Source of the DNA: a virus
Reading direction: 5' to 3' (one strand)
Virus record (IMG/VR): IMGVR_UViG_3300010883_000568
Coordinates: 1-22,010 of that record
Length of the DNA stretch: 22,010 nt
In this document: positions 10,195 through 22,010 of the stretch, piece by piece
Numbering within the stretch: position 1 is the stretch's first letter
Layout of the letters: the number at the start of each line of letters is the position of its first letter
Made by a program: the position numbers and the translations under genes
Notes under the pieces: generated by a model
Seen by the model: the letters and a program-made list of their open reading frames with translations, nothing else
Databases searched by the model: none
Told to the model about the DNA's origin: nothing

Positions 10195-12630
10195 TCATCG
10201 TGGGTCAAATTCAGCAAGGTCGAAGCCATCTAGGCTGTCCTCATTGGATTCAAAATTGATGGGAGGTAAGTTATTCTTACGCTGATTGATTAGTTTAGAC
10301 TGCTCTGTATTTTGCTGGCTGATACGCTTGCCTTTAGCATCTTCTCGCATATCCTCTCTTCCCGCAATTAGCTCTTCATCAAGCCCCTTAAGCTGCATAT
10401 TAAAGTTAAACTCCTGCTGCATAAGTTGGTTTTTCAGCTGAGCCTCCATCTGCATACGCTCAATATCGAACGCTACTTCGGCCTGCTTTACCTGAACTTT
10501 TTGTTGCCCTTCTGCCTGGATTTTCATCATCTCAGAATCGGCAGCAATTTTTTGAGACTGGAACTGCTGCTGCATCTGTGTTTGTTGCTGCTGCAATTGC
10601 ATAGCCTCCTCGCGCTCCTGCTTTTTCTTGCGCTTTAACTTAAGAAGTTGGTTGGCAAGTTTAATATTTCTAATCTCCCGAATATCAATGGCATCCTCTA
10701 AGTTGATGTCATTTTTAGAAAGCGCCATCTGGATATTTTGCTCCAGCATAGCCTTCTGTTCTTCATCAGGAGCTACTTCAATAAATACCCCGAAGTCATA
10801 GATATATAAATCTTTGATATCGTTAAGGATAGATACATTGTACTTGCCAATTTGATTTGAAAACTCTTCTTTAAAATCAGCGTACTCCAATATATCAGCT
10901 ACTCGGCACGAAAGGGCTTCGGCCATAGATTTAAGGATATAAAGGCTTCCGTCTAATATATGCCGTGTAGCTACATTAGAGTTTAAAGCCGCCAACTTCT
11001 GTACACCAACTAAAGCATAGGGGTCTGGTGTAGAGCCATCACGCGCTTCGTTAAGACCCGTTATATCACGTATCATACTGAGATAGTGATTGTAGTTGCC
11101 GATAAGAGCACTAATCTTCGACTGTCCCGAGTTACTGGTAAGCTGCTGGATAGGAACGCGGGCGTTATTAAACTCGCCGTCCTGGGTATAGCTTCTACCT
11201 ATAACACTACCTGTCTGGAAATATAGCCGCAAAGCATCTTCTGGGTTATATGCGTTACCCGTACCCAGGTCGACTTCGTTAAGTCCATCGGCATCGATAA
11301 AGACACCGTCAGGGACAATACGAGACATCACCTGCTGTAACTTAAGGTGCGTAATTTGTATCTGGTCAGCTAAAGGAATCATACGACGAACTAACGACTC
11401 TATATTTCCTTTGTACATACGAGGCGCACACGCTACGTAATTAGGAACTGCATATTGAGATGCCGATTTAGGTCGGACCATATTTTCTGCCATCTCCCAC
11501 TTAAGTAGGATGCTGGTTCCCATAACCATAACACCCTCATACCATACATCGATAGTCTTTTCGATTTTCTCAAAACGACCCTCTTCCATCATCTCATCTG
11601 GCGGGTTGAATGTATCGTCTTTCTCGATAACCTTACTTCCGCCCGTTTCGTTAATCTTCTTCTTATAGACAAACTTCTTAGTCGTCTTATAATTAAAATA
11701 CATCAGCGTAGCGGTATCTCGATAGAACATATCGTTTTGATAAAGCTCCGCTACGTTATAGTAATCATACCAACTTTGAGAATACTTAGAAATTTCCTCT
11801 AGGTCTTCCCTGGTAAGGGTAGGGTCGATTTTAATCAGCTCTGTAATAGCTACCGTTTTAATCTCACCCCAGTAAAAAGTATCTTTAAAGTATGGGTCTT
11901 CAGTATAGCTGTATACCACATTAGCAGGGTCTACATACTCTACCCGTACCCCGTCTCCCTTCAAAAACTCGTGCTTTGCAATACCAATCCCTAAAGTAGT
12001 TAGGTCATAGTCTACCCGTTGGCGTGTCTCGCTATAATGATTTTGGTCCAACAACGTATTAATCGCCGTCTCTTCTGCAATTTCAATAGCAGGCTTATAG
12101 TTAAGCTGCATATAAAGAGATAGCTCTTCATCGCTGTTGGGTAAATCGTCAGGAGCTACTGTAAAGGGGTCAACGCCAAAGTCTTGCTGAACCTGTAGTA
12201 ATAAATCTTTAGAGACCATCTGGGCCTCTATCATATCCTGGTATTTACTGCGTTTAGCAGAAGACATAGCATCCTGAGCATATGCCTTTACATCAAACAA
12301 CCTGTCGGACATACCGTTAACTACAATATCAACAAACTTAGGTATGATAGGAATAGGTGTCCAGTCCAGATTGAGATACGAAAGGTCACCATCTGTAGAT
12401 AGCTCGTTTTTGTATTTCGCTACCGATTGCTCCCCGCGAGAGTACAGGCGTAATCGATTAAATTCTCGCCATTGGCTATAGAATCTACAACTGTTACCAT
12501 CTCTTTTAAACCACTCATACTGAATGGCTTGGCCTACTTGAATTCCAAACTCACTACTTGCTTTTTCGGAGTCAGAAACAAATTGAGTAGGGAACGAGGT
12601 AGATGCTATATTGACTTGAACATCTCTCAT
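10195..12630 (-). CDS. portal protein
   Basis: This 811-residue protein is close to the ~800-residue portals of crAss-like phages. The N-terminal part includes WREFNRLRLYSRGEQSVAKY and LNLDWTPIPIIPKFVDIVV, phrases I recognise from portals of Bacteroidota podoviruses, and the centre has ITHLKLQQVMSRIVPDG and a DITGLNEARDGSTPDPYALV region typical of portal clip/stem areas. From residue ~662 the protein becomes a long Gln/Lys/Glu-rich coiled coil (LLKLKRKKKQEREEAMQLQQ) extending to ~770, then an acidic tail ending DLAEFDPR. The portal forms the dodecameric DNA entry ring and docks the terminase; the coiled coil would be the barrel inside the head (inferred). The start ATG overlaps the terminase stop by one base (TAATG). 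Confidence 0.88.
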   Translation of the reverse strand: MRDVQVNIASTSFPTQFVSDSEKASSEFGIQVGQAIQYEWFKRDGNSCRFYSQWREFNRLRLYSRGEQSVAKYKNELSTDGDLSYLNLDWTPIPIIPKFVDIVVNGMSDRLFDVKAYAQDAMSSAKRSKYQDMIEAQMVSKDLLLQVQQDFGVDPFTVAPDDLPNSDEELSLYMQLNYKPAIEIAEETAINTLLDQNHYSETRQRVDYDLTTLGIGIAKHEFLKGDGVRVEYVDPANVVYSYTEDPYFKDTFYWGEIKTVAITELIKIDPTLTREDLEEISKYSQSWYDYYNVAELYQNDMFYRDTATLMYFNYKTTKKFVYKKKINETGGSKVIEKDDTFNPPDEMMEEGRFEKIEKTIDVWYEGVMVMGTSILLKWEMAENMVRPKSASQYAVPNYVACAPRMYKGNIESLVRRMIPLADQIQITHLKLQQVMSRIVPDGVFIDADGLNEVDLGTGNAYNPEDALRLYFQTGSVIGRSYTQDGEFNNARVPIQQLTSNSGQSKISALIGNYNHYLSMIRDITGLNEARDGSTPDPYALVGVQKLAALNSNVATRHILDGSLYILKSMAEALSCRVADILEYADFKEEFSNQIGKYNVSILNDIKDLYIYDFGVFIEVAPDEEQKAMLEQNIQMALSKNDINLEDAIDIREIRNIKLANQLLKLKRKKKQEREEAMQLQQQQTQMQQQFQSQKIAADSEMMKIQAEGQQKVQVKQAEVAFDIERMQMEAQLKNQLMQQEFNFNMQLKGLDEELIAGREDMREDAKGKRISQQNTEQSKLINQRKNNLPPINFESNEDSLDGFDLAEFDPR

Positions 12631-14876
12631 TATTTAACTAGTTCGCTGATGTTTCCACGGTTGTTGTATCTAGCAAAGGTAACAGATATTTTCGATTGCT
12701 TTTCTTCGGGTTGATATACGTGTTTTTGATTCGCCATAATTGCCAATCCCGAACTGATAGTAGCATCAAATTTTGTCCTGTTATTGATATCAAATTTAGC
12801 CCAGTCTTCTAAGGTTCGAGTAAACGGCATCACTCCGATATCCCCTGCCGAACGATAAGTTCCTTCTAAATCTATACCGATATGTTTTTCAATATACGAT
12901 TCTATAGCAGAAGCGTGAGACTGCTTGACGTCCTCAGAACTATTGGGTATACCTCCAAGTTCTTTCTCTGTTTTAGAGAGTTTATTAAACTTCTTGTCGG
13001 GACGGTTCATAGAAAACTTTCGATAGCCTCTATGTTTAAAATGATAGAGAAGCCTTGGTTTATTATTCTCCGTTAGGATAGGCATACCATAGAAAATACA
13101 GGCCATTAGTACCTCTTCAAAAAATATCTCTGCCGTTTGAGGACGTGCTACATACTCTAGAAAAAACTCACTGCTCGGGGCGTCATCCATATTAAACTTA
13201 GTCATCCCGTGAAGAGAACCATTAGAACCTCTTCCGCCGACTACGCCTGATATATCATAAGGGTCACATCCAAACGACCCTATATGTTCATTGCCAGGAA
13301 ATTTCATCCCGTTGCGCGTAATAACATTGTTTTGTAAATGGGCAGGAGGTATCCATCCCAACACAAATCTACCGTTACGCTCTGGAGTCCAAATTACCTT
13401 GGTGTCTTTCTCTCCGTTGAGCCAATGAAACGAACCACGAGTAAGGTAATGCTCCTTAATCATCGTATCGTTATAGTCTATCTGCTGGTATATCTTGGTA
13501 AGATTAAATAGCGACTGTTTGCTTTCATCTCTAAAAGCGTGAGACTCCGTCCTAGGGAACTGCCTATAGAATTCGTTAAGAGCGTCAGGGTCATTTTTTA
13601 ATGACGCCACTTCATTCTCCCAATAGTCAATAGCACCAATTTTAATAACACTTCCGTCAATGCCTTTAGATGCAATTGCAGGAGTCCTAAAAATTGGCAT
13701 CCCATAGATATCTATATAACCCTCAAAATTCCATTCCATAGGAATAAAGAGACTGTACATACCGCTTTTAGTTTGCCCGTTAGCATTGCGGTTGCTGACG
13801 TCAGATTGCGAAAATAAAGTCTTATAGTTACCACCCCCTTTACTCAGCGCATTAGAAGTAGAACCCATCATACACTTACCTATAATGCGGCTACCTAGTC
13901 GCAGGCAAGTTTTAGTAACGCGCCAGTTATTGAGGATGTTCTCTGGCTTCTCCCACTTCCCGCTCTCATCGTGTACCAGCAATAGGAGCTTCTCTCCGTC
14001 ATAGCTGTTGTCTGATGTATTCTTCCAATCTATAGTTGTGTCAAGACCATCTAACTCGTTATCCTCATCCAAGTACATATTGCGCTTGGTAATTTTAGAG
14101 GCGGGGATACGGTAAGCTAGCTCGGTCTTTGGCTTGTCCATACCGTCCTGGATAGGCTTAAAGAAAAACGGATAGTTTGCCGATATAGGAACGACCTTAT
14201 CCGTAAACATCTTCTTAGCGTCAGAACCCGTTTTAGAAAGTATACCTACACGCGCGTCTTTAGCTAACGTACCGATATTAACGCATTCTGAAGAACCCAT
14301 AAAAGAAAATCCTGAACGACGAATCTTTAGGTAGCACATACCAAAACTTCGGGCGTCGGCCTTACACGCTTCCCAAAATATATAGAATATGCGATTGGCT
14401 TCTCTAAAGTCAGGAAGTCCTACGTCGATTTTAGTCCATTGAAGGTAGCTATAATGAGACCCCGTTACATACGTAGACTTACCGTTATTCATAAACCACA
14501 CGCCGTTCTCTCTACGGTTAAACTCCTCTTCTATAAAATCTACCCACTTATCTTTAAACTCGGTAGGCATTTCATTCCACTGAAAGATAGTCTTGATACG
14601 AGAGAGTTCTTTAGGATATTGAAGCGGTTGCCAATACTGCTCTTTTTTATTCTTACTACGCTGTATCGGCTCTTTATTTTTAGCGGGAAGAGCAATACGA
14701 AGTCCCTGGATATCCACGACATCTCCTACAGTTCCGTCTTTGGATATAACGACAAAATCATACTTTTCATTGTAGCCATACTCCCAGGTTTTACCTCTAT
14801 TTTTTGCCGCCATCGCCGCAGGAGGGACGATATCAGTAAGGTAGGTAAGAAGGTTATTTTGACCGTCGTTCTGCAA
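12630..14876 (-). CDS. terL: terminase large subunit
   Basis: This 748-residue packaging motor has an ATPase half with an unusual Walker A-like loop KIRRSGFSFMGSSE (residues 184-197), Walker B KLLLLVHDESGKW (296-308; Asp303, Glu304) and a coupling-like GST (338-340). The nuclease half has GSFGCDPYDISG (533-544) with Asp538 as the likely first metal ligand, acidic residues around 583-588, and FDATISSGLAIMA (703-715) with Asp704 as the likely last ligand. Together this is a complete ATPase plus RuvC/RNase H-like nuclease. The longest frame starts at TTG 14876 and overlaps the upstream gene by 23 bases; the first ATG in frame is at 14813 (residue 22, MAAKNRGKTW). Residues 1-21 read like protein, so the longer form is kept, but the true start is undecided. 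Confidence 0.92.
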   Translation of the reverse strand: MQNDGQNNLLTYLTDIVPPAAMAAKNRGKTWEYGYNEKYDFVVISKDGTVGDVVDIQGLRIALPAKNKEPIQRSKNKKEQYWQPLQYPKELSRIKTIFQWNEMPTEFKDKWVDFIEEEFNRRENGVWFMNNGKSTYVTGSHYSYLQWTKIDVGLPDFREANRIFYIFWEACKADARSFGMCYLKIRRSGFSFMGSSECVNIGTLAKDARVGILSKTGSDAKKMFTDKVVPISANYPFFFKPIQDGMDKPKTELAYRIPASKITKRNMYLDEDNELDGLDTTIDWKNTSDNSYDGEKLLLLVHDESGKWEKPENILNNWRVTKTCLRLGSRIIGKCMMGSTSNALSKGGGNYKTLFSQSDVSNRNANGQTKSGMYSLFIPMEWNFEGYIDIYGMPIFRTPAIASKGIDGSVIKIGAIDYWENEVASLKNDPDALNEFYRQFPRTESHAFRDESKQSLFNLTKIYQQIDYNDTMIKEHYLTRGSFHWLNGEKDTKVIWTPERNGRFVLGWIPPAHLQNNVITRNGMKFPGNEHIGSFGCDPYDISGVVGGRGSNGSLHGMTKFNMDDAPSSEFFLEYVARPQTAEIFFEEVLMACIFYGMPILTENNKPRLLYHFKHRGYRKFSMNRPDKKFNKLSKTEKELGGIPNSSEDVKQSHASAIESYIEKHIGIDLEGTYRSAGDIGVMPFTRTLEDWAKFDINNRTKFDATISSGLAIMANQKHVYQPEEKQSKISVTFARYNNRGNISELVK

Positions 14877-15138
14877 AGCCTTGTTTGGTATTGGTAGATG
14901 AGTCGCCGCGTTTTTCAGCTGCTTCTAAATTTTCTTTCTCTTGTTCAATTCGATTGAGTATCTCAAGAGCATCGAATATAGCTAGTTTTTTAGTAGCCGC
15001 TGCGTTCTTAAGCCTATCGGCTGCTAGCTCGTCTTCGATATCAGGCTTTATAATATCCTCTTTAGCGACTTTAATAAGCTGCTCTACAGCTCTATGGCCT
15101 GCTTTTATAATCTCTAGTTTAAGCTCTTTTATATTCAT
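14854..15138 (-). CDS. small helical protein, candidate terminase small subunit
   Basis: This 94-residue protein is nearly all helix, rich in Lys, Glu, Ala and Ile (MNIKELKLEIIKAGHRAVEQ, LAADRLKNAAATKKLAIFDA), with a polar disordered tail (EKRGDSSTNTKQGF). Its stop lies inside the start region of the large terminase gene, and its ATG overlaps the previous stop as ATGA, so it is translationally coupled on both sides. Small terminases are short, helical, oligomeric DNA-recognition proteins encoded immediately before terL, which fits. No helix-turn-helix is obvious, so the call rests on size, shape and place. A packaging or assembly cofactor is the alternative. Confidence 0.5.
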   Translation of the reverse strand: MNIKELKLEIIKAGHRAVEQLIKVAKEDIIKPDIEDELAADRLKNAAATKKLAIFDALEILNRIEQEKENLEAAEKRGDSSTNTKQGFAERRSK

Positions 15139-15698
15139 AAGACCATCGTTATGTTCTCAGTATACATACGATAAAGCTTTTCCCCGTCGACGGTAAACTC
15201 GTATTCACTTTGCGGGGTAAAAGAAATCTCATCGCCTTCTTTAACTCCTAGCTTTTCTAACTGCTCGTTGCCATAGCGAAGAGTCCCAAAGAGAGGTTCT
15301 TCCTTAACGAACTTCTTTATCCACGATTCTTTTTCTTCTACAGGCTTTACAAAACAGTACTTGCTGTGGGCTTTCCACTGGTCGTCTTTTTTGTACAAGA
15401 AGAATTGCTCTTCTTCGATAAAAAATAGCTGGTCTTTAAAGTAGCTACGCCCACTTTTTTGAACGCCTTTCATATCGTAATAGTATTTAAATACATTATG
15501 ATGGACGAGTAGGGTATCTCCTTTAGAAATAGGACCTGTATAAGAAATGGGGGTTGCCTCTACTATAGCATAACGATTAGAAAACCTATGGTCTTCTTGA
15601 GAGGAGCTTACGATGAATTCTACATCACCCATCTCTCTTATGTTATCGTACCTGGTATCGTTAAGTGGCTGAACTATAAATGCGTCTGGTGACCTCAT
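15135..15698 (-). CDS. possible GroES-like (gp31-type) co-chaperonin, two-domain
   Basis: This 187-residue protein appears to hold two related beta-rich halves. The first has RYAIVEATPISYTGPISKGD then TLLVHHNVFKYY (residues ~42-73), which resembles the GroES pattern of a small beta barrel with vkxGDxVl followed by a mobile region. The second, near the C-terminus, has LFGTLRYGNEQLEKLGVKEG DEISF...(positions ~136-160) and YEFTVDGEKLYRMYTENI, again GroES-like, with KEGD and a terminal 'LYRM..xxI' strand. Known biology: several phages encode a GroES substitute (T4 gp31) needed to fold the capsid protein. Inference: this protein may do the same. It overlaps both neighbours by 1-4 bases. The alternative is an unrelated beta-rich structural protein. 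Confidence 0.4.
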   Translation of the reverse strand: MRSPDAFIVQPLNDTRYDNIREMGDVEFIVSSSQEDHRFSNRYAIVEATPISYTGPISKGDTLLVHHNVFKYYYDMKGVQKSGRSYFKDQLFFIEEEQFFLYKKDDQWKAHSKYCFVKPVEEKESWIKKFVKEEPLFGTLRYGNEQLEKLGVKEGDEISFTPQSEYEFTVDGEKLYRMYTENITMVL

Positions 15699-15919
15699 TA
15701 AAAGTTAATGTTGTACTCTACGGACACAGGCATAGAATGAGAGAAGTGTTTCCACAGAACTATCTCATCGTTGCGCTCTATCCATATTTGGATTGAATTT
15801 GATTTAACCTCACTTTTTATGAGGTGGATTTTATAACCGCCCCCTAAAACCTCCTGCCCTATTAAATAGTGCATAGCCGACTTATAGTCAGGGCCTATAG
15901 AAATTTTACGGATAAGCAT
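15698..15919 (-). CDS. small hypothetical protein
   Basis: This 73-residue product begins MLIRKISIGPDYKSAMHYLI. It has short predicted beta strands (GGGYKIHLIKSEVKSNSIQI, EIVLWKHFSHSMPVSVEYNI) and no membrane segment or signal peptide. The gene sits 3 bases after the fibre-like gene and its stop overlaps the ATG of the possible co-chaperonin (TAATG). Similar short proteins occur before terminase blocks of marine phages as I recall, always without a function. The tight coupling to the next gene suggests a joint role, but nothing more can be said. Confidence 0.65.
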   Translation of the reverse strand: MLIRKISIGPDYKSAMHYLIGQEVLGGGYKIHLIKSEVKSNSIQIWIERNDEIVLWKHFSHSMPVSVEYNINF

Positions 15920-15922
15920 AGT

Positions 15923-16486
15923 TTAGATAGAATGAACGACAACGCTTACGTGCGAACAGTCTATGTTCGCAATTGCACTGTTTTTAACTTTAATTTTTAA
16001 GCTGTCGCCAAAAACCAAATTGGCAATACAGGTCATAACTAAATTAAACTCAGTACTGTTGCCTGTTTCTGTTACGCTACTTGTAGAGGAAACTATATCT
16101 GTCTCAGTTCCACCTGAAGTCTTCTGTGTTATTAAACCCGTAATAACATTATTATTAGATGCTTTTAAACTTAACACCACTGTTACTTGAGAAAGCAGTG
16201 TAGTCTGTGGCGTATTTACATTTGACACCAGTTCATTAGTGGCGGTATACCCGTCAGACAACCCTGTAGAAAGCACCACATTTAAATCAACATAAGTATC
16301 CGCCGCTGATATAGTTGTTGTAGCTGCCGCATTAGAAAATGCGTCGATATAATAAGCAGGAGCTGTCGCTGAAGACAGTGATTCTACAGTAATATTTTTA
16401 GTTGCATTAGAGTCGTTAGCATCGCTAACAACAATCCTATCGGAAGGGCTAGGAGTAACTGTTGCGTATGTACTAATCTTAGGCAT
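15923..16486 (-). CDS. small fibre/appendage-like structural protein
   Basis: This 187-residue, Thr/Ser/Asn/Ala-rich protein is almost free of charged residues after position 40. It begins MPKISTYATVTPSPSDRIVV and then SDANDSNATKNITVESLSS, the short N-terminal anchoring pattern (IS...PSxxDxxxVSD...T.NIT...L) seen in many phage fibre and head-appendage proteins. The rest is beta-rich (DTYVDLNVVLSTGLSDGY, QVTVVLSLKASNNNVITG, SVTETGNSTEFNLVMTCIA), consistent with a jelly-roll or TNF-like trimer domain at the tip. By inference it is a virion appendage. The spacer before it carries TACCTTTG, an exact TAnnTTTG match. Confidence 0.6.
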   Translation of the reverse strand: MPKISTYATVTPSPSDRIVVSDANDSNATKNITVESLSSATAPAYYIDAFSNAAATTTISAADTYVDLNVVLSTGLSDGYTATNELVSNVNTPQTTLLSQVTVVLSLKASNNNVITGLITQKTSGGTETDIVSSTSSVTETGNSTEFNLVMTCIANLVFGDSLKIKVKNSAIANIDCSHVSVVVHSI

Positions 16487-16505
16487 AGTCGTGAGGTTTA
16501 GTATT

Positions 16506-16513
16506 CAAAGGTA
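16506..16513 (-). promoter_or_regulatory. candidate -7 box TACCTTTG
   Basis: The minus strand reads TACCTTTG, matching the Bacteroidota -7 consensus TAnnTTTG, 20 bases before ATG 16486 in a 28-base spacer. No convincing TTTG box lies 17-20 bases further upstream. It could start a packaging-gene transcript below the lysis genes. Confidence 0.3.
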
Positions 16514-16514
16514 A

Positions 16515-16979
16515 TCAATCTCTATTTTTCCTTACAGCACTCCCAAAGAAGTAACCAAAGATACTTAAGACGATACCCTCAGTAATTCCGATGAGGTGAA
16601 TCCAAACCTCTTTATTGGGTTCTGGAATGGTTAAATAGACAATGGCATATATAATAAAAGCGAAAGAACTCAAGCCAATTATACCCGTTAGGTTGAACAT
16701 AAGGTCAAAATTGCTAGTCTTAGAAATCTCTACCTCGCGCTTACGTGCGGAGTCCCTATCCGACACCTCTAATGCATAAAGCTCTTTAAGATGATTGTGG
16801 CCCTGTTCTTTGTCAGCAGGGTCCATCTTAGGGTCGTCGTCTATAAGTCGGCTTATGATGCCTAAAACGCCCGCGTCAGGGACTACATCGCCTACAACAC
16901 GTAAGATATCGGGAGCTTTGGATTTAAGCCACCCTGCCATCTTGGTATCGCGGAACTTTTTCTTTTCGTTTACGCCCAT
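16515..16979 (-). CDS. holin-like two-TM membrane protein
   Basis: This 154-residue protein has a soluble N-terminal half (WLKSKAPDILRVVGDVVPDA) and the phrase SDRDSARKREVEISK (residues 73-87), common in phage membrane proteins annotated as holin family. Two hydrophobic segments follow, about 94-117 and 126-147, the second ending in the positive tail AVRKNRD. A gene directly downstream of the amidase with this shape most likely makes the inner-membrane hole that lets the amidase reach peptidoglycan. The ATG lies inside the last codons of the amidase gene (10-base overlap). A second in-frame ATG at 16940 (MAGWLKSK) might give a shorter form. Function is inferred from shape and neighbour. Confidence 0.6.
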   Translation of the reverse strand: MGVNEKKKFRDTKMAGWLKSKAPDILRVVGDVVPDAGVLGIISRLIDDDPKMDPADKEQGHNHLKELYALEVSDRDSARKREVEISKTSNFDLMFNLTGIIGLSSFAFIIYAIVYLTIPEPNKEVWIHLIGITEGIVLSIFGYFFGSAVRKNRD

Positions 16980-17377
16980 CGGTACTCTGCTGTTGCGTCA
17001 AATGAAGGGCAAGCTTTATTAGAAAAATCGTTATGAGAGTGAACCTCTGCATTGCAATGCAATCGTTTAAGAGTACATATAAGCATCGTAAGAGAATCGA
17101 CCTGCTCATCGGTCCTAGTGTCCATAGGTTCGCCGTCTTTATCAAGACCTCCTATATAGCAAATACCAATAGAGCCCTCGTTATGGCCTTTACAATGAGC
17201 TCCAGTAAGTTTTAAATCTCTGCCGTATTCAATTACCCCGTCTAGGTTAATAACAAAGTGGTAGCCTATATCAGAGAACCCTCGAGCTTTATGCCATCGG
17301 CGGATATCGTCCGCAAAAAACTCTTGCTCTTCTTTTGTAGCCGAGCAATGGACAATAATTTTATTGATATCTCTCAT
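16970..17377 (-). CDS. N-acetylmuramoyl-L-alanine amidase, T7-lysozyme type endolysin
   Basis: This 135-residue amidase_2-family enzyme cuts the bond between N-acetylmuramic acid and L-alanine in peptidoglycan. It aligns by eye along nearly its whole length with T7 lysozyme: IIVHCSATK (residues 7-15), IRRWHKARGFSDIGYHFVIN (25-44), GAHCKGHNEGSIGICYIGG (59-77) and KACPSFD (121-127). The zinc ligands are His10, His115 and Cys123, with Tyr39 and Lys121 as the catalytic counterparts of T7 Tyr46 and Lys128. All are present, so it should be active. It has no signal peptide, so it needs a holin, which the next gene may supply. In T7 the same protein also restrains the phage RNA polymerase; nothing here tests that. 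Its ATG overlaps the preceding stop by 3 bases (ATGA). Confidence 0.93.
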   Translation of the reverse strand: MRDINKIIVHCSATKEEQEFFADDIRRWHKARGFSDIGYHFVINLDGVIEYGRDLKLTGAHCKGHNEGSIGICYIGGLDKDGEPMDTRTDEQVDSLTMLICTLKRLHCNAEVHSHNDFSNKACPSFDATAEYRWA

Positions 17378-17505
17378 CGTCCTTGACCGCGATAGGGCTT
17401 TTTACGCCCTTTGCTTTTGGTTAAACGGCTAGTGTTTTTAGAGTGTATACCAGGTCGTTTTGTACAGCTAGAGGCAGACTTGATATTTACTACAGACTTT
17501 GCCAT
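17374..17505 (-). CDS. 43-residue basic protein
   Basis: This short gene is tightly packed between two others. It starts with ATG 17505 one base after the stop of the upstream gene and ends at TGA 17374, overlapping the amidase ATG. The product begins MAKSVVNIKSASSCTKRPGI, continues with HSKNTSRLTKSKGRKKPYRG and ends QGR. Lys/Arg make up roughly a quarter of it and acidic residues are absent. Small proteins with a CKRPGxH...K...YxGQGR outline occur in marine phages as I recall, without function. One Cys plus one His is too few for a zinc finger in a monomer. Nucleic-acid binding or a virion role are guesses. The perfect fit into the operon is the main reason to call it a gene. Confidence 0.75.
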   Translation of the reverse strand: MAKSVVNIKSASSCTKRPGIHSKNTSRLTKSKGRKKPYRGQGR

Positions 17506-17506
17506 T

Positions 17507-17809
17507 TTATTGATTACTTAATTTATAGATACGGTCGTCTAGTTTTTGAAGGACCTGCTTTATTTCTTGGATATCTTCTTTAAGCACCGTTACGTCTTTA
17601 CTGGTAGACATAATAGCGCTATCAATAAGTTCATCGTGAATTTTAAGCTCTACAGATGACACCTGCGGAACAGGGAGTTCTTTTGCCTCGGCTATCTCAC
17701 TCTTCAGAGTAAAGTACATCCCAATGAATGTCGACAGCACTACCCCCAAACTGATAAAGTCTTTTATCCCTAATGATAGCTTGGTATCCTTGTCGATTTC
17801 GATTCCCAT
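17507..17809 (-). CDS. one-TM coiled-coil protein of the lysis region
   Basis: This 100-residue protein has a short N-terminal segment, one hydrophobic segment at about residues 18-35 (FISLGVVLSTFIGMYFTL), then a charged linker and a coiled coil to the C-terminus (VTVLKEDIQEIKQVLQKLDDRIYKL, heptad-like from ~72 to 97). Membrane-anchored coiled-coil proteins next to an endolysin are often holins, holin regulators or i-spanin-like proteins. In this Gram-negative setting an Rz-like role is possible, but no lipoprotein partner was seen. The start ATG 17809 follows an A/T-rich spacer, and the stop is one base before the ATG of the basic 43-residue gene. Confidence 0.6.
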   Translation of the reverse strand: MGIEIDKDTKLSLGIKDFISLGVVLSTFIGMYFTLKSEIAEAKELPVPQVSSVELKIHDELIDSAIMSTSKDVTVLKEDIQEIKQVLQKLDDRIYKLSNQ

Positions 17810-17877
17810 TTTTTCTAATCAGTATAAAATTTATATATCGATTTATAGTTGAATTAGATTTCATTAGGTAGAAGATA
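17810..17877. other. 68-base A/T-rich spacer between fibre and lysis blocks
   Basis: No gene, terminator hairpin with T run, or exact TAnnTTTG box is seen. The strongest structure is the A/T inverted repeat TATAAAATTTATA at 17823-17835. It may hold a weak promoter or operator for the lysis genes, but nothing decides this. Confidence 0.3.
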
Positions 17878-18312
17878 TTACTCTTCAATAAAGTCAACGT
17901 CCTCAGTCAATTCTTCAATAGGGTCTGGTGGGAACCATCCGTTAGCCTCCATATACGCTTGGTCGTGGACCGTACACTCGGTGGGGATAATCTGTTCAAA
18001 AAGAACCGTTGAAGACGTAGTGATAAGCGTAGTAAGGGCGTCCATCTCTGCTTGTGGCATTAAAGGAAATAAAGACTGTAGCTCGGTCAAGTCGACCGCT
18101 GCGTTGACATAGATAACCCAGTCTAAAATAATAGACAGCGCTGCTTCCCCTGTAGTAGGATGGATGGCAGAGCCAAATAAATTGAAGCTTGCCTCGTCAG
18201 GGTTCTGGATAGATTCTGGACGGGTGATACAATACAACTGACGTGAGATAGCTGCTGCTCGCTCCTCAGATGTAAGCCCTCCTTCGGGAGGTACGATTAG
18301 ATAGTTACTCAT
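17878..18312 (-). CDS. hypothetical acidic protein at the end of the fibre block
   Basis: This 144-residue protein begins MSNYLIVPPEGGLTSEERAA. Its middle is helical and hydrophobic (GEAALSIILDWVIYVNAAVD, ELQSLFPLMPQAEMDALTTL) without a clear membrane segment, and its C-terminus is Pro/Glu/Asp-rich (GWFPPDPIEELTEDVDFIEE). It has no Lys residues that I can see, giving a strongly acidic protein. It follows the receptor-binding block and precedes the lysis genes, so a fibre chaperone or minor virion protein is conceivable. I do not recognise the family. Its spacer carries TATCTTTA, close to the -7 box. Confidence 0.65.
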   Translation of the reverse strand: MSNYLIVPPEGGLTSEERAAAISRQLYCITRPESIQNPDEASFNLFGSAIHPTTGEAALSIILDWVIYVNAAVDLTELQSLFPLMPQAEMDALTTLITTSSTVLFEQIIPTECTVHDQAYMEANGWFPPDPIEELTEDVDFIEE

Positions 18313-18318
18313 ATTGTG

Positions 18319-18326
18319 TAAAGATA
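18319..18326 (-). promoter_or_regulatory. -7-like element TATCTTTA
   Basis: The minus strand reads TATCTTTA, one mismatch from TAnnTTTG, only 7 bases before ATG 18312. GTTATCTT followed by CACAA is shared with the spacer before the gene starting at 10155. If it is a promoter the mRNA would be nearly leaderless; the closeness makes this uncertain. Confidence 0.2.
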
Positions 18327-18332
18327 ACGATA

Positions 18333-19256
18333 TTAATAGATGACGTAGAAATTATTGATGTTGGTTTCAATTCCTGTTAGGTTGTTTGTTTCGTCTATTG
18401 GATACACAATAAATTCTTGCATCGTTCCAGACCAAGTAATACCGTTATTAATATACGCGCCAATCCTCATTTGTGTCGTATCAAGACTCCCTGTCAGAAG
18501 CGCCAAGGCAATCGGATACTCGACTGTATTCTTGAAAACTCGAAAGCCATTCGATGTGGTACCTGCTGTAACGCTGAATAAATTTTGATTTGTGTCGTTT
18601 ACAGTATAAGTTATAGGTGACCTGCTACCGTAATAAAACCTGTCAGAGTTTGAGCCTGGTGAATAATGCCAAATCCTATTTGTGTTCGTACCTCCCAAAA
18701 CAAATTGCATTGCGGCGTTTGAAGTATTGTTACTAGCGCAAACTGTGCTTATTGTTATATCGCCTTGGTCTAAATTAGGATAGCTAATTAAGAAATAGTC
18801 ACTAGAGCTCCTAATGAAATTAATCGCAGGCTTACCGTTCTCCGTTGTCACAGCACCCGTTGACCCATCGTAAATCTTAGGTCGGTTGGGAGACGAAACT
18901 TGAGTAGCGTTGTTCCCACTACCACTCTGGTCGTACCAAGTCTGTACGAACACGTCATTACTGCCTCCATAAGCAATAATAGCAGCCGTGTCCAACTCTC
19001 CGTTGCTATCGAAGCCTACATCAAGAGTGGCTCCACCTACGGTGTCCTGTACTTTAATAGCGCTACCCGTATAGGTAGAGCTTAGACGGCGTAAGCTATG
19101 TCCAGCTCTCGCACCTGGGTAGGTATCTAAAAGTAAAGAACCGCCCGTAGCTGGCTTATCTATAAGATTGATGGACCCTAAAGCTGAGACATCAACTCCG
19201 TCAAAATTAGATATATTGGCGAAATCAATTCCGCTTACTTTTTGAATAGTCGCCAT
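18333..19256 (-). CDS. host-contact protein with arabinofuranosidase-B-like / ConA-like module
   Basis: This 307-residue protein has a short virion-type N-terminus (MATIQKVSGIDFANISNFDG), then residues ~47-145 with the hallmark order AGHSLRRLSSTYTGSAIKVQ, LDVGFDSNGELDTAAIIAYG, VQTWYDQSGSGNNATQ and RPKIYDGSTGAV...ENGKPAI. This resembles the catalytic-domain family of alpha-L-arabinofuranosidase B (GH54), which has a ConA-like lectin/glucanase fold. A divergent beta-rich section follows, and the protein ends in TGIETNINNFYVIY. In phages such modules sit on tail appendages and bind or cleave surface glycans; whether this one is enzymatic cannot be told from the sequence. The same module occurs twice in the gene at the right edge. 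Confidence 0.7.
   Translation of the reverse strand: MATIQKVSGIDFANISNFDGVDVSALGSINLIDKPATGGSLLLDTYPGARAGHSLRRLSSTYTGSAIKVQDTVGGATLDVGFDSNGELDTAAIIAYGGSNDVFVQTWYDQSGSGNNATQVSSPNRPKIYDGSTGAVTTENGKPAINFIRSSSDYFLISYPNLDQGDITISTVCASNNTSNAAMQFVLGGTNTNRIWHYSPGSNSDRFYYGSRSPITYTVNDTNQNLFSVTAGTTSNGFRVFKNTVEYPIALALLTGSLDTTQMRIGAYINNGITWSGTMQEFIVYPIDETNNLTGIETNINNFYVIY
18355..18371 (-). repeat. 17-base trailer repeat, copy c
   Basis: TTGATGTTGGTTTCAAT (plus strand) is identical at 18355-18371, 20534-20550 and 21356-21372. It encodes ETNIN within the module ending GIETNIN(D/N)FY(S/V)IY that closes each ArabFuran-like module. Confidence 0.85.
18826..19136 (-). repeat. module repeat copy 3 (ArabFuran-like coding repeat)
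   Basis: The stretch encodes the conserved part from YPGARAGHSLRRL to ENGKPAI. It is clearly similar at DNA level to 21014-21318 and to 21775-22010; for example the 19 bases CTCTGGTCGTACCAAGTCT (plus strand) are identical in all three copies. The direct orientation could allow homologous exchange. Confidence 0.85.
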
Positions 19257-19268
19257 ACTAAGACATTT

Positions 19269-19811
19269 TTAAGCTAGTGTGATGAACGAACTGTCTGGAT
19301 TTATATAAGCAATTTTATTGGTTACGTCCAAAACATAACCTACAATTCGAACAATAAATCCTGTGGTTCCAGTAGGTTGCGTGTCCGTTAAAAGACCGTC
19401 GGTTGTAGATAAATAAATAGGAGCCCCCAACGTAGTAATGCTAGAACTTGAGTCCAGTACGATATTACCCTCGCGGAGCATTGACGAAGAATTAGTAGAA
19501 GCTGCAATAGCAATAATACCCGTAGACTTAGTGCTATCAGTAGCATTGGAAGCTTCCCACACAGAGCCAGTCCAATAATAAGCTTGACCAAGCGTCGTTG
19601 CACCAGAAGCCCAAGCGTTAAAGAAAGTAGAACCAGGTGAATAATCTCCTGCTGCTGCACCCGATGGGTTTTTCTCTAGGTTAGCTCCTGCTCCAGATAA
19701 AAAATTCGTAGGGGTAATTTTGATGTTACCCGCCGCCGTAAGACCGACTATCTCAGTTACATTTCCTACAGTTGTCTCAGCTGTAAACTCTGAAAATTTT
19801 ACGTTTGCCAT
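19269..19811 (-). CDS. short appendage/structural protein with shared C-terminal domain
   Basis: This 180-residue protein has an N-terminus MANVKFSEFTAETTVGNVTE of the anchoring type seen in small phage fibre proteins. Residues ~55-90 (FFNAWASGATTLGQAYYWTG) connect to a C-terminal beta domain. That domain (STGIIAIAASTN, LREGNIVLDSSS, GAPIYLSTTDGLLTD, FIVRIVGYVLD, AYINPDSSFITLA) matches by eye the end of the next upstream product (GMIIKGNIVQAS, GSPVYLDTTDGGATS, VVRVIGYKI, MYFDPSKDWTVIP). It is therefore one of two paralogues placed between the two lectin-module genes. Probably a virion appendage or head/tail decoration protein; the exact role is unknown. Start ATG 19811 lies 9 bases after the upstream stop. 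Confidence 0.65.
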   Translation of the reverse strand: MANVKFSEFTAETTVGNVTEIVGLTAAGNIKITPTNFLSGAGANLEKNPSGAAAGDYSPGSTFFNAWASGATTLGQAYYWTGSVWEASNATDSTKSTGIIAIAASTNSSSMLREGNIVLDSSSSITTLGAPIYLSTTDGLLTDTQPTGTTGFIVRIVGYVLDVTNKIAYINPDSSFITLA

Positions 19812-19820
19812 AATATTAAT

Positions 19821-20510
19821 TTAAGGAATTACAGTCCAATCTTTTGAAGGGTCAAAATACATCTCTTTGTTATTTATTTTATACCCTATTACCCTAACGA
19901 CATTTCCTGATGCGGTAGGACGAGTTGATGTTGCACCTCCATCGGTAGTGTCTAAGTAAACAGGTGAACCATTGCTGCCTGTTAAAGTACTTGCCTGTAC
20001 AATATTACCCTTTATAATCATTCCAACTGAACCGACTGAGTACGCGAACGCTGTCCAAGCCAAGAAACCTGTGGATACATTGCTTTCTGAAGTTGCATTT
20101 GATGGAGTAACTGTTACTCCCTCGATAACATAGAATGTTGCGGGTGTTAAAGTAACAGTAGTAATACTCCTATACGACTCTACTCCCCTTCCAAAATATG
20201 TGGGAGTTGTGTCGTCTGATGATGCGTAATTATTTTGTAGCAGATACGTTATAGAACTGAAGTTCATTGTATTGGTAGACGAATCGTATTTTATATTAAA
20301 AAAACACTTCAACTCATCTTCCGTATCCGAACAAAACACCATACGCCCATCACCTTGAAAATCTACTGTAATATCTCCGCCGCCAATAAGGTCTGACACT
20401 TCTTGAAGAGTGTAAGCTTCTCTACCTGCGTTAGCTTGAGCCGAGCCTCGGTTTACGGTGTCTACACCTGCGGCTACAGTATGTATCTTATCTGTGAGTT
20501 TAATTGCCAT
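19821..20510 (-). CDS. appendage/structural protein sharing C-terminal domain with its neighbour
   Basis: The 229-residue form starting MAIKLTDKIHTVAAGVDTVN is preferred: its ATG at 20510 lies one base after the stop of the upstream gene. A longer frame back to ATG 20549 would overlap that gene by 38 bases and adds 13 unremarkable residues. Residues ~20-45 (RGSAQANAGREAYTLQEVSD) are a likely anchor. A central domain includes FQGDGRMVFCSDTEDELKCF and TLTPATFYVIEGVTVTPSN. The last ~75 residues are the beta domain shared with the 19269-19811 product. No catalytic motif was seen. Role by context: tail or head appendage working with the adjacent lectin-type proteins. Confidence 0.65.
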   Translation of the reverse strand: MAIKLTDKIHTVAAGVDTVNRGSAQANAGREAYTLQEVSDLIGGGDITVDFQGDGRMVFCSDTEDELKCFFNIKYDSSTNTMNFSSITYLLQNNYASSDDTTPTYFGRGVESYRSITTVTLTPATFYVIEGVTVTPSNATSESNVSTGFLAWTAFAYSVGSVGMIIKGNIVQASTLTGSNGSPVYLDTTDGGATSTRPTASGNVVRVIGYKINNKEMYFDPSKDWTVIP

Positions 20511-20511
20511 C

Positions 20512-22010
20512 TTAATAAATCGAATAAAAGTCGTTGATGTTGGTTTCAATACCTAATTCATTTCCACTATATGCAGCATAAATGATTGATTCCTGCACCC
20601 GTTTAGATGTACCACCCTGTAAGCTTGGATGTTTGCCGATAAAATAAAGGTCTGCGGTACCTGTGTTTCCTACGTCTGTATTCGTGCCGACAGATGCCCC
20701 ATTGAGTCGAGCGTGTCGCGTCGTGCCATCATATGTACCTCCGTTAAGAACCTGAGTGGCTGCTACTATTGTACCGCCAACTGCCACTTCAAAGTTTGTA
20801 GCATTAGAATGATACCGAATTTGAGCGTTTGATGAATTTGTACCAATCATCACACCCCTAGTTGCTCCACCAATTTGAACCCCTGAAGCGTATTGGTTTC
20901 CAACATTTATTGTATCGTAAGATGCCACGCAATAAAGCTCGTTTTCAATAACCCCCGTAAACGCGGTGGCGCTGGTGCTTTGTAAAATCTGACTGTTTGA
21001 AGTAAATTCTACCGCAGGCTTCCCGTTCTCCGTTATCACCACTCCCGTTGTACCGTCATAAATCTTTGGACGGTCAGCAGACGTAGCTTGAGTTGCGTTA
21101 TTACTATTGCCGCTCTGGTCGTACCAAGTCTCTACGAAGACGTCGTTAGAGCCTCCGTAAGAAATAATAGCAGAAGTATCTAACTCTCCGTTGCTATCGA
21201 AACCTACATCTAGCGTAGACCCGCCTACGGTGTCCTGTACCTTAATAGCAAAACCTGTGTAGCTCGTGTTGAGCTTACGCAAAGAGTAACCCGCAGAAGC
21301 ATTAGGATATAAATTTAAAAGAAGAGGCGTAGGCCCGTAAATGCTGTAGAAATCGTTGATGTTGGTTTCAATGCCTGTGCGGTTGGTGGATTGGTCGGAA
21401 TTATAAATAATAAACTCTTGTCCGAAAGTGTACATTTTCTGTCCGCTTCGAGTCAATCCAAAGCCGCCCGTCCAAGTGCTGAAATCACCCGAAACGGTTA
21501 GAACGCTTTGCGATTGCAGCGCGTCCCAAATATCGTTACGCGTTGCTCCAATTGAAGTTCCGTTACTGAATTGCGATAAGCTACCAATTCCCGCGCTACT
21601 TGCTCCTGTGTTGCCGTTAATTCCTAAGCCGTAATATTCGACAACAGAACCAACATCGATTCCAATCCTTGGTAATGCTTCCAAGCCGTTCGATTGAAGG
21701 ACGTTGAAAATATAGGTTGTCGAGGCTCCGTTCCAAGTCGTGTCTGCCATAAAATCTCCCGCCTTAAAATCAAGCGAAGGTTTGCCGTTGTTAATCACCA
21801 CCGCACCCGTTGTACCATCATAAATCTTTGGACGGTTAGCAGACGTAGCTTGAGTAGAGTTATTACCATTGCCACTCTGGTCGTACCAAGTCTCTACAAA
21901 GACATCATTAACACCTCCGTAAGCGGCAATAGCAGAAGTGTCTAACTCTCTGTTACTATCAAAACCTACATCAAGAGTCGCTCCACCTACGTTGTCCTGT
22001 ACTTTAATAG
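20512..22010 (-). CDS. tail fibre/appendage with tandem arabinofuranosidase-B-like modules, 5' end outside window
   Basis: The frame is open to the right edge: bases 22010-21802 translate in frame as IKVQDNVGGATLDVGFDSNR then LDTSAIAAYGG, VETWYDQSGNGNN and RPKIYDGTTGAV, so the ATG at 21801 is internal. About 499 codons are visible. There are two modules in tandem. Each has the GH54-like conserved part (AGYSLRKLNTSYTGFAIKVQ, LDVGFDSNGELDTSAIISYG, WYDQSGNSNNATQ, ENGKPAVEF), a variable beta-rich part and the ending GIETNINDFYSIY; the first module is cut by the window edge. The repeat build and the position next to short appendage genes suggest a host-recognition fibre or adhesin that binds or trims surface glycan. 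Enzymatic activity is not established. Confidence 0.75.
   Translation of the reverse strand, partial: IKVQDNVGGATLDVGFDSNRELDTSAIAAYGGVNDVFVETWYDQSGNGNNSTQATSANRPKIYDGTTGAVVINNGKPSLDFKAGDFMADTTWNGASTTYIFNVLQSNGLEALPRIGIDVGSVVEYYGLGINGNTGASSAGIGSLSQFSNGTSIGATRNDIWDALQSQSVLTVSGDFSTWTGGFGLTRSGQKMYTFGQEFIIYNSDQSTNRTGIETNINDFYSIYGPTPLLLNLYPNASAGYSLRKLNTSYTGFAIKVQDTVGGSTLDVGFDSNGELDTSAIISYGGSNDVFVETWYDQSGNSNNATQATSADRPKIYDGTTGVVITENGKPAVEFTSNSQILQSTSATAFTGVIENELYCVASYDTINVGNQYASGVQIGGATRGVMIGTNSSNAQIRYHSNATNFEVAVGGTIVAATQVLNGGTYDGTTRHARLNGASVGTNTDVGNTGTADLYFIGKHPSLQGGTSKRVQESIIYAAYSGNELGIETNINDFYSIY
20534..20550 (-). repeat. 17-base trailer repeat, copy b
   Basis: Identical to copies at 18355-18371 and 21356-21372. 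It closes the second module and ends 20 bases before the gene's stop. Confidence 0.85.
21014..21318 (-). repeat. module repeat copy 2 (ArabFuran-like coding repeat)
   Basis: The middle copy encodes the stretch from LYPNASAGYSLRKL to ENGKPAVEF. It is a direct repeat with copies at 18826-19136 and 21775-22010 and is close to copy 1 at base level, including the identical run around WYDQSG and around RPKIYDGTTG. Confidence 0.85.
21356..21372 (-). repeat. 17-base trailer repeat, copy a
   Basis: This is the internal copy closing the first module and marking the junction (FYSIYGPTPLLLNLYPNAS) to the second module. It supports a tandem duplication of whole module units. Confidence 0.85.
21775..22010 (-). 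repeat. module repeat copy 1, truncated by window edge
   Basis: This copy encodes IKVQDNVGGATLDVGF through INNGKPSLDF. The conserved part continues beyond the right end. It differs from copy 2 mainly by scattered single-base changes, consistent with an old tandem duplication. Confidence 0.8.

Follow-up and report, generated by a model that had tools for sequence, protein, structure and literature searches.

Genes A and D, on the minus strand of the window (the whole 22,010-nt stretch of DNA analysed), probably encode tail adhesins that consist of lectin modules of the GH54/concanavalin-A-like type, in which the centres are swapped by phage-phage recombination via conserved flanks. The phage has a bacterial host type and an aquatic setting.

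Module architecture in the window and in related phages

Open reading frame and repeat analysis confirmed three module copies with conserved ends on the minus strand, at the places where the earlier note had put them. One copy is cut by the window end. Contig L001, which is 99.79% identical to window positions 10336-22010, runs 1,464 nt beyond this end, so that the cut copy is complete there and gene A encodes 584 aa. In the relatives compared, the arrays are followed immediately downstream by a 144-aa gene, which served as synteny anchor to fetch 30 related loci. The features are as follows.

20512-22010, minus: gene A, cut by the window end (complete, 584 aa, at positions 1215-2969 of L001); a leader outside the window plus modules M1 and M2
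21772-22010, minus: M1 N-flank (framework), truncated at the window end but full in L001; similar to GH54
21433-21771, minus: M1 centre, a variable cassette of 113 aa with relatives in L057/L058, L059, L060 and L061 (70-88% aa identity)
21337-21432, minus: M1 C-flank, ending in GIETNINDFYSIY
21322-21336, minus: M1-M2 linker, with a 6-nt (PT) length difference from L001
21010-21321, minus: M2 N-flank (framework)
20608-21009, minus: M2 centre, a variable cassette of 134 aa with relatives in L063/L065 and L064 (91-93% aa identity)
20515-20607, minus: M2 C-flank, ending in GIETNINDFYSIY; end of gene A
18333-19256, minus: gene D, 307 aa; a 41-aa leader plus module M3
18822-19133, minus: M3 N-flank (framework)
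18432-18821, minus: M3 centre, a variable cassette of 130 aa with distant relatives in L060 (47-48%) and L121 (41%)
18336-18431, minus: M3 C-flank, ending in GIETNINNFYVIY; modeled as a strand plus C-terminal helix
17878-18312, minus: 144-aa gene (synteny anchor)

The copies had been located correctly but their limits needed adjustment, as the modules proper span 22010 (cut)-21337, 21321-20515 and 19133-18336; the copy endings are corrected to GIETNINDFYSIY (twice) and GIETNINNFYVIY. Repeat family D1 comprises three copies of 246 nt with 81-83% DNA identity. The N-flanks (~104 aa) are 75-82% identical at the DNA level over 312 nt, with longest exact runs of 23-29 nt, and the C-flanks (~30 aa) share exact runs of 17-20 nt. 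For the three centres (113-134 aa), exact DNA runs of 8-10 nt were at chance level, blastp hits with the centres alone stayed at E~1 or worse, and profile-profile comparison between their three families returned probabilities <1%. The centres, previously called unrelated or strongly diverged, thus have no detectable similarity by any of these measures. Gene A also had a Pfam match to Exonuc_VIII, at E 0.029, which was below the cutoff and taken as chance.

The same pattern extends to other viral contigs, the majority of them from metagenomes, where 108 modules fell into a single N-flank family against 57 centre families. Pairwise identity among 57 modules was 0.3-0.6 for the flank and 0.10-0.19 for the centre, and tandem arrays reached up to seven modules. 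Scanning with one flank-like sequence identified 23 loci in bacterial assemblies, and no annotated isolate carrying the same M2 module DNA was found. Flanks are kept at some orthologous positions in L003, L004 and L005.

Exchange of centres between phages

Centres of M1 and M2 recur at 70-93% aa identity in other phages, behind diverged flanks. M2 of L001 is 91% identical to L064 in the centre and 54% in the N-flank (93% and 39% for L063), and M1 is 88% and 57-62% identical, respectively, to L057 and L059. Comparable values were obtained between L064 and L063 (centre 97%, N-flank 40%) and between L005 and L017 (96% and 58%). When synonymous sites were analyzed, the M1 and M2 centres showed dS of 0.26-0.55 to L059, L057, L064 and L063, the N-flanks of the same pairs were saturated or nearly so (dS >2), and dS was 2.6-3.0 for TerL in the closest relatives. 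On the left, DNA identity (third codon positions included) jumps at NGKP(A/S)..F, and on the right it decays near GIETNIN, placing the breakpoints at the flank-centre borders. The reverse combination, which the earlier note had proposed to look for in related phages, was also observed: L064 and L059 share an N-flank (89%) followed by an M2-type centre in the former and an M1-type centre in the latter, and 125 module pairs have N-flanks of at least 85% identity and centres without a match. Like centres with diverged flanks and like flanks with different centres both support the proposal that conserved flanks act as exchange points. The outcome that the earlier note had named as a refutation did not occur: centres do not align with each other within the genome, and module content differs between most of the relatives examined.

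Duplication followed by divergence, with constrained flanks and centres evolving fast under host-driven selection in the absence of genome-to-genome exchange, would be compatible with protein-level conservation of the flanks and with the orthologous flanks of L003, L004 and L005. However, this model does not accommodate centres that are 88-97% identical (dS 0.07-0.55) behind flanks with saturated synonymous sites, the abrupt change at third codon positions at the borders, or unrelated centres on ~99% identical backbones. Because centres and flanks are decoupled, divergence is refuted as the sole cause, and we consider it highly improbable as an explanation.

Replacement was most evident among near-identical phages. 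L101, L102 and L104 have backbones of 99.2% nucleotide identity (about 99%) over 7.5-10.6 kb and six modules each, with a homologous centre at none of the six positions (0/6). L105 is 99.6% identical to L101 from module 3 onward, and modules 1-2 differ. The first 2,639 nt of G022 recur exactly at positions 57245-59883, and these two copies diverge where the N-flank of the last module begins, representing two alleles in one contig. As relatives that are ~99% identical carry almost entirely different centres, this appears to be a natural re-equipping of the host-contact part. Short-read assemblers could generate a similar picture by jumping between modules at conserved flanks, a concern raised by flank stretches that match exactly between strains for as much as 158 nt and by the G022 ends, which differ exactly at a flank. 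Conversely, the same arrays were recovered from independent datasets (window/L001 at 99.8%, modules 3-6 of L101/L105, L116/L121 and L110/L115), which argues against chimeras as a general cause, and L001 was compared with L064, L059 and L057 as contigs from different datasets with flanks of 54-62% aa identity. Many distinct centres exist whatever the joins, and chimeras themselves need co-existing alternative centres; assembly artifacts are therefore a very unlikely explanation.

Under the favored model of exchange via conserved flanks, the N-terminal framework (~104 aa) and the C-terminal strand/helix (~30 aa) would close one beta-sandwich, and the ~115-135 aa between them would constitute a replaceable cassette, probably the ligand-contacting face, in which sequence similarity between types has been lost. 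When two phages meet in one cell, annealing-type homologous recombination via the conserved flanks would replace, without loss of reading frame, either centres or several consecutive modules. Two near-genome-length relatives, G022 (61 kb) and G023 (64.5 kb), encode a Sak SSAP beside a PDDEXK nuclease, and this phage-coded pair may perform the recombination; no Sak gene was seen in the 22,010-nt fragment.

Many alternative centres with fixed borders also resemble cassette systems, which raises the question of a dedicated diversifier, i.e., a site-specific recombinase/shufflon, a silent cassette store or a diversity-generating retroelement. No flank or centre copies occur outside the array in G022 or G023, and no silent centres in three partial relatives; neither of the two near-genome-length contigs contained a silent store. 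A scan of 61 proteins of G022/G023, which excluded small ORFs and the majority of proteins longer than about 800 aa, revealed no family of reverse transcriptases or site-specific recombinases, so neither a retroelement nor an invertase was detected in the proteins scanned. A conserved DNA recombination site at the borders was rejected as well, as border motifs showed no synonymous conservation across lineages and codon identity in 1,486 pairs with unrelated centres was near codon-usage expectation (observed/expected ratio of 0.9-1.2 along the whole module and about 1.1 at the C-flank). In addition, the centres are unrelated rather than point-mutated, and overall a dedicated diversifier seems improbable.

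Fold, probable virion location and proposed host contact

The arabinofuranosidase B resemblance noted earlier was confirmed, although by sequence it is confined to the N-flank (PDB 6sxr/1wd3, E~1.5e-8, chain residues 16-87). Pfam ArabFuran-catal was detected at E<=0.1 in 33 of the 50 module sequences (lowest E 5.9e-13), and Laminin_G_3 matched M3 weakly (E 0.018; best among modules 1.3e-6). The AlphaFold model of gene D (pLDDT 82) adopts a beta-sandwich fold, for which Foldseek identified GH54 1wd3 (E 5.6e-11, TMq 0.62); the model also matched the cyanopodophage Pan3 tailspike (PDB 9VYH, E 3.4e-5). A two-module model reached a pLDDT of 67 overall and only 25-45 in the M1 centre, so that a fold common to all centres is putative.

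The GH54 acid/base residue, Asp297, is not conserved, with Asp in 1/50 and Glu in 1/50 modules at the aligned column, though the alignment is weak there. The position of the nucleophile Glu221 lies in the unalignable centre (6sxr is an E221Q mutant). Judged from sequence, the modules are best read as non-catalytic GH54/concanavalin-A-like domains. Active arabinofuranosidases (depolymerases) with centres as alternative active sites would agree with the N-flank homology, the fold match and the mapping of GH54 catalytic residues to the centre; yet enzymatic activity is unlikely given the composition of the Asp297 column and given that the centres lack the conservation expected of a single active site.

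Several observations point indirectly to a location on the virion. The module forms the C-terminus of a muzzle-family protein (crAss_MUZ) in L006 and lies behind tail-terminator/tail-fiber domains in L058, the neighboring gene g153 matches a tail-fiber PHROG, and the fold resembles that of the Pan3 tailspike. By these homologies, the products of genes A and D are best interpreted as probable virion-borne tail adhesins. A muzzle-family tail protein, as in crAss-like structural modules, is present in this group of phages: crAss_MUZ_C was found in one relative and crAss_MUZ in L006, and window positions 1-4428 fall into phrog_14478, to which the L006 muzzle also belongs. Among Gordonia phage isolates that infect one host but belong to several genera, the module is shared at 94-100% aa identity, whereas many pairs differ in the tail genes upstream of it. 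Gordonia phage Hedwig, on G. terrae 3612, is one cultured phage with such a module. Fold, module fusion to tail proteins and Gordonia sharing suggest that the centres bind host surface glycans, and that centre exchange may alter host range, for which the Gordonia sharing is correlative.

Comparison with known systems

The modules resemble GH54 alpha-L-arabinofuranosidase B (PF09206; 1WD3) in N-flank homology and overall fold, but are shorter, do not conserve the acid/base Asp, have a centre without detectable similarity and form tandem phage arrays. With LamG/concanavalin-A-like phage lectins, including the Pan3 tailspike (9VYH), they share the beta-sandwich fold and occurrence in phage tail proteins; in contrast, a conserved framework here surrounds an exchangeable centre in up to seven tandem modules. 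Diversity-generating retroelements of phage tail proteins likewise combine a variable binding region with a fixed scaffold, whereas here no reverse transcriptase was found (61 proteins, two relatives) and centres are unrelated instead of mutated at selected sites. Unlike shufflons and invertible tail fibers, the locus has no extra flank or centre copies in G022/G023, no recombinase family among the 61 proteins scanned and no conserved border DNA site. Rad52-like phage recombinases are known for relaxed homologous recombination (PMC3945230); Sak beside its nuclease in two relatives is candidate machinery with a putative link to the locus.

Host-recognition fragments are traded between distantly related phages (Smug et al. 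2023, PMC10684548), and tail-fiber modules are shared among Alteromonas phages (PMC10579305). Module-centre exchange is a further form of this receptor-binding protein mosaicism, with a shared fragment in otherwise diverged proteins, but what is exchanged is a portion of a single domain, enclosed by two conserved framework segments, arrayed and with dozens of alternatives. A combinatorial adhesin of up to seven lectin modules, with plug-in centres from a large community-wide pool, turnover so fast that phages ~99% identical elsewhere have hardly a centre in common, and a framework whose conservation permits exchange and is kept partly as a recombination handle, is a tentative extension; if true, it would be a recombination-based counterpart of retroelement-driven diversification. 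The natural pairs (same flank with different centre, and same centre with different flank) are ready for adsorption tests, and the 57 sequence-unrelated, position-equivalent centre families can be used for structural and glycan-binding work. In metaviromic islands of marine phages, host-recognition genes, including carbohydrate-binding/lectin-like ones, vary between otherwise near-identical phages (PMC3909814). That study reports under-recruiting regions, whereas here the exchange unit is resolved, borders included, to the residue. Through it, aquatic phages renew a probable host-contact surface and leave the remainder of the genome unchanged, which provides a concrete molecular basis for such islands.

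Organization of the window phage and its modules

The window is an entire virus contig of 22,010 bases from a podovirus-type phage, with the structural half encoded on the minus strand:

Structural genes, minus strand: terminase large subunit, portal, amidase and several virion structural proteins, one of them of the muzzle family
Gene A, 584 aa (read from L001): two arabinofuranosidase-B-like modules (M1, M2)
Gene D, 307 aa: one module (M3)

The nearest terminase, at 74% aa, belongs to 'Podoviridae sp. ctfjg026' (Manatee Spring), followed by Flavobacterium Elemovirus isolates (44%) and then Cellulophaga phages, and crAss-like phage muzzle-family models match proteins in relatives. A near-identical contig, L001 (99.79% identity to window 10336-22010), reaches 1,464 nt beyond the window end, so the gene truncated there becomes readable. 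About half of the window/L001 substitutions in the 11.7 kb compared are concentrated in ~220 bp (window 16752-16973), located in the overlap of the amidase gene with a 154-aa gene and in the latter, suggesting a small recombination tract.

In all three modules, a common N-flank (~104 aa; 75-82% identical in DNA, with exact runs of 23-29 nt) and a common C-flank (~30 aa; exact runs of 17-20 nt) enclose centres of 113, 134 and 130 aa. Between these centres, common DNA runs reached only the chance length of 8-10 nt, blastp found no meaningful similarity and profile-profile comparison gave probabilities <1%. Among 57 modules from viral contigs (<90% identical), pairwise identity per ten-residue block was ~0.3-0.6 in the flanks and 0.10-0.19 in the centre. 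A larger set of 108 modules comprised one N-flank family and 57 centre families, a number that depends on the blastp cutoff (E<1e-3, 50% coverage). Arrays hold up to seven modules.

Several further features were observed. In a 64.5-kb relative, the product of the array gene (L123:1354-8361) is 2,336 aa long; DUF285 repeats and a weak match to PKD come before its five modules. The N-flank is also present in bacterial assemblies (L070-L092; Mitsuaria/Roseateles, Flavobacteriaceae, Saprospiraceae and others). A 44-aa leader (MAIKLTDKIHTVAAGV...) is near-identical in window gene B and L001 gene g192 (window 20377-20510, L001:167-300; 95.5% DNA identity over 134 nt) and is followed by largely unrelated sequences, giving the module region a second conserved-start/variable-end pair. 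Genes C and B (window 19269-19811, 19821-20525) also have in common an ~85-aa stretch near their C-termini (44% identical).

Centre exchange and array turnover

In searches by centre alone, six other contigs matched the M1 centre (70-88% aa) and three matched that of M2 (91-92% aa). The N-flanks accompanying these centres are only 39-62% identical to those of the window. Synonymous divergence was used to tell history apart from constraint. Centre dS was 0.26 for M2-L064, 0.30 for M2-L063, 0.32 for M1-L059 and 0.55 for M1-L057, with N-flank dS in the same pairs >2 or saturated and terminase dS of the closest relatives (88% aa) at 2.6-3.0. The window's own module copies have unrelated centres and a flank dS of 0.53-1.05; their flanks thus coalesce within the lineage more recently than the split from those relatives. 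In codon-level profiles, the left border shows a jump in identity at NGKP(A/S)..F and the right border a decay near GIETNIN. Despite flanks that are 89% identical, both at the last array position, L064 carries an M2-type and L059 an M1-type centre, two types that adjoin each other in gene A.

Turnover was also apparent among near-identical phages, with 30 loci retrieved through the 144-aa gene downstream of the arrays (80-100% identity). Three of these loci, L101, L102 and L104, have 99.2% identity across 7.5-10.6 kb on the downstream side of the array and 97.5-98.6% across 3.9-5.2 kb on its upstream side. Each has six modules with same-position N-flanks mostly 88-99% identical (60-63% at L104 position 2), and no pair has homologous centres at the same position. 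From module 3 onward, L105 and L101 are 99.6% identical, but their modules 1-2 differ, which is an internal crossover. In the relative G022 (61,168 bases), the first 2,639 nt are repeated exactly at 57245-59883, and the copies diverge at the start of the last module's N-flank into different upstream modules; this assembly holds two array alleles. Metagenome assembly can misjoin repeats and so generate mosaic arrays, but the same arrays were obtained from different datasets (window/L001, L101/L105, L116/L121, L110/L115), which argues against misjoining as the main cause.

Neither extra flank or centre copies outside the array in G022 and G023, nor a reverse transcriptase or site-specific recombinase among 61 scanned proteins of these two near-genome-length relatives, nor clear DNA conservation of border motifs above codon usage across lineages was seen. 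The simplest account is therefore that co-infecting phages would recombine through protein-conserved flanks, with selection for a working fold filtering the recombinants. Exact identity available in the flanks between strains spans 17-158 nt. In both relatives, a Sak single-strand annealing protein adjoins a PDDEXK nuclease, and Sak may take part in centre exchange. Rad52-like phage recombinases, the family including Sak, efficiently recombine short, diverged sequences, with relaxed fidelity demonstrated for members other than Sak (Red-beta, RecT, Erf) (PMC3945230).

Fold and likely role of the module

A 50-module profile matches GH54 arabinofuranosidase B (chain residues 16-87), and the Pfam model of the catalytic domain hits 33 of these 50 at E<=0.1, with a best E of 5.9e-13. 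The gene D structure model (pLDDT 82) matches GH54 1wd3 with E 5.6e-11; a phage structure that it also matches is the tailspike of cyanopodophage Pan3 (E 3.4e-5). The model of the M1 centre has low confidence. Opposite Asp297, the acid/base residue of GH54, Asp occurs in 1/50 modules, the alignment being weak at that column, so binding appears a more likely role than hydrolysis. The catalytic residues of GH54 fall between the two flanks, so the centre is probably the ligand-facing part. An arabinofuranosidase-like module forms the C-terminus of a muzzle-family protein (L006:3636-8756), so a tail protein can carry the module directly. In L058, tail-terminator and tail-fibre domains precede the modules, and both fusions support a location on the virion.

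Gordonia phages of different genera (L137-L144), all isolated on G. terrae 3612, have in common the module protein (94-100% aa) and, just before it, the ~1.2-kb end of a minor tail gene (~87-99% nt), with genes farther upstream divergent in many pairs. This correlation hints that the module may bear on host range; selection by the single isolation host would explain it, if the module matters for adsorption.

Comparison with known systems

It is established that receptor-binding proteins are mosaic (PMC10684548), that distant Alteromonas phages have tail-fibre modules in common (PMC10579305) and that host-recognition regions vary in marine phages (PMC3909814). A non-exhaustive literature search found no published description of the present module architecture. 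What is new is the exchange unit, a part of one domain between two framework segments that is tandemly repeated, together with the dozens of sequence-unrelated alternative centres for this one unit and the near-complete replacement of centres between phages whose backbones are ~99% identical.
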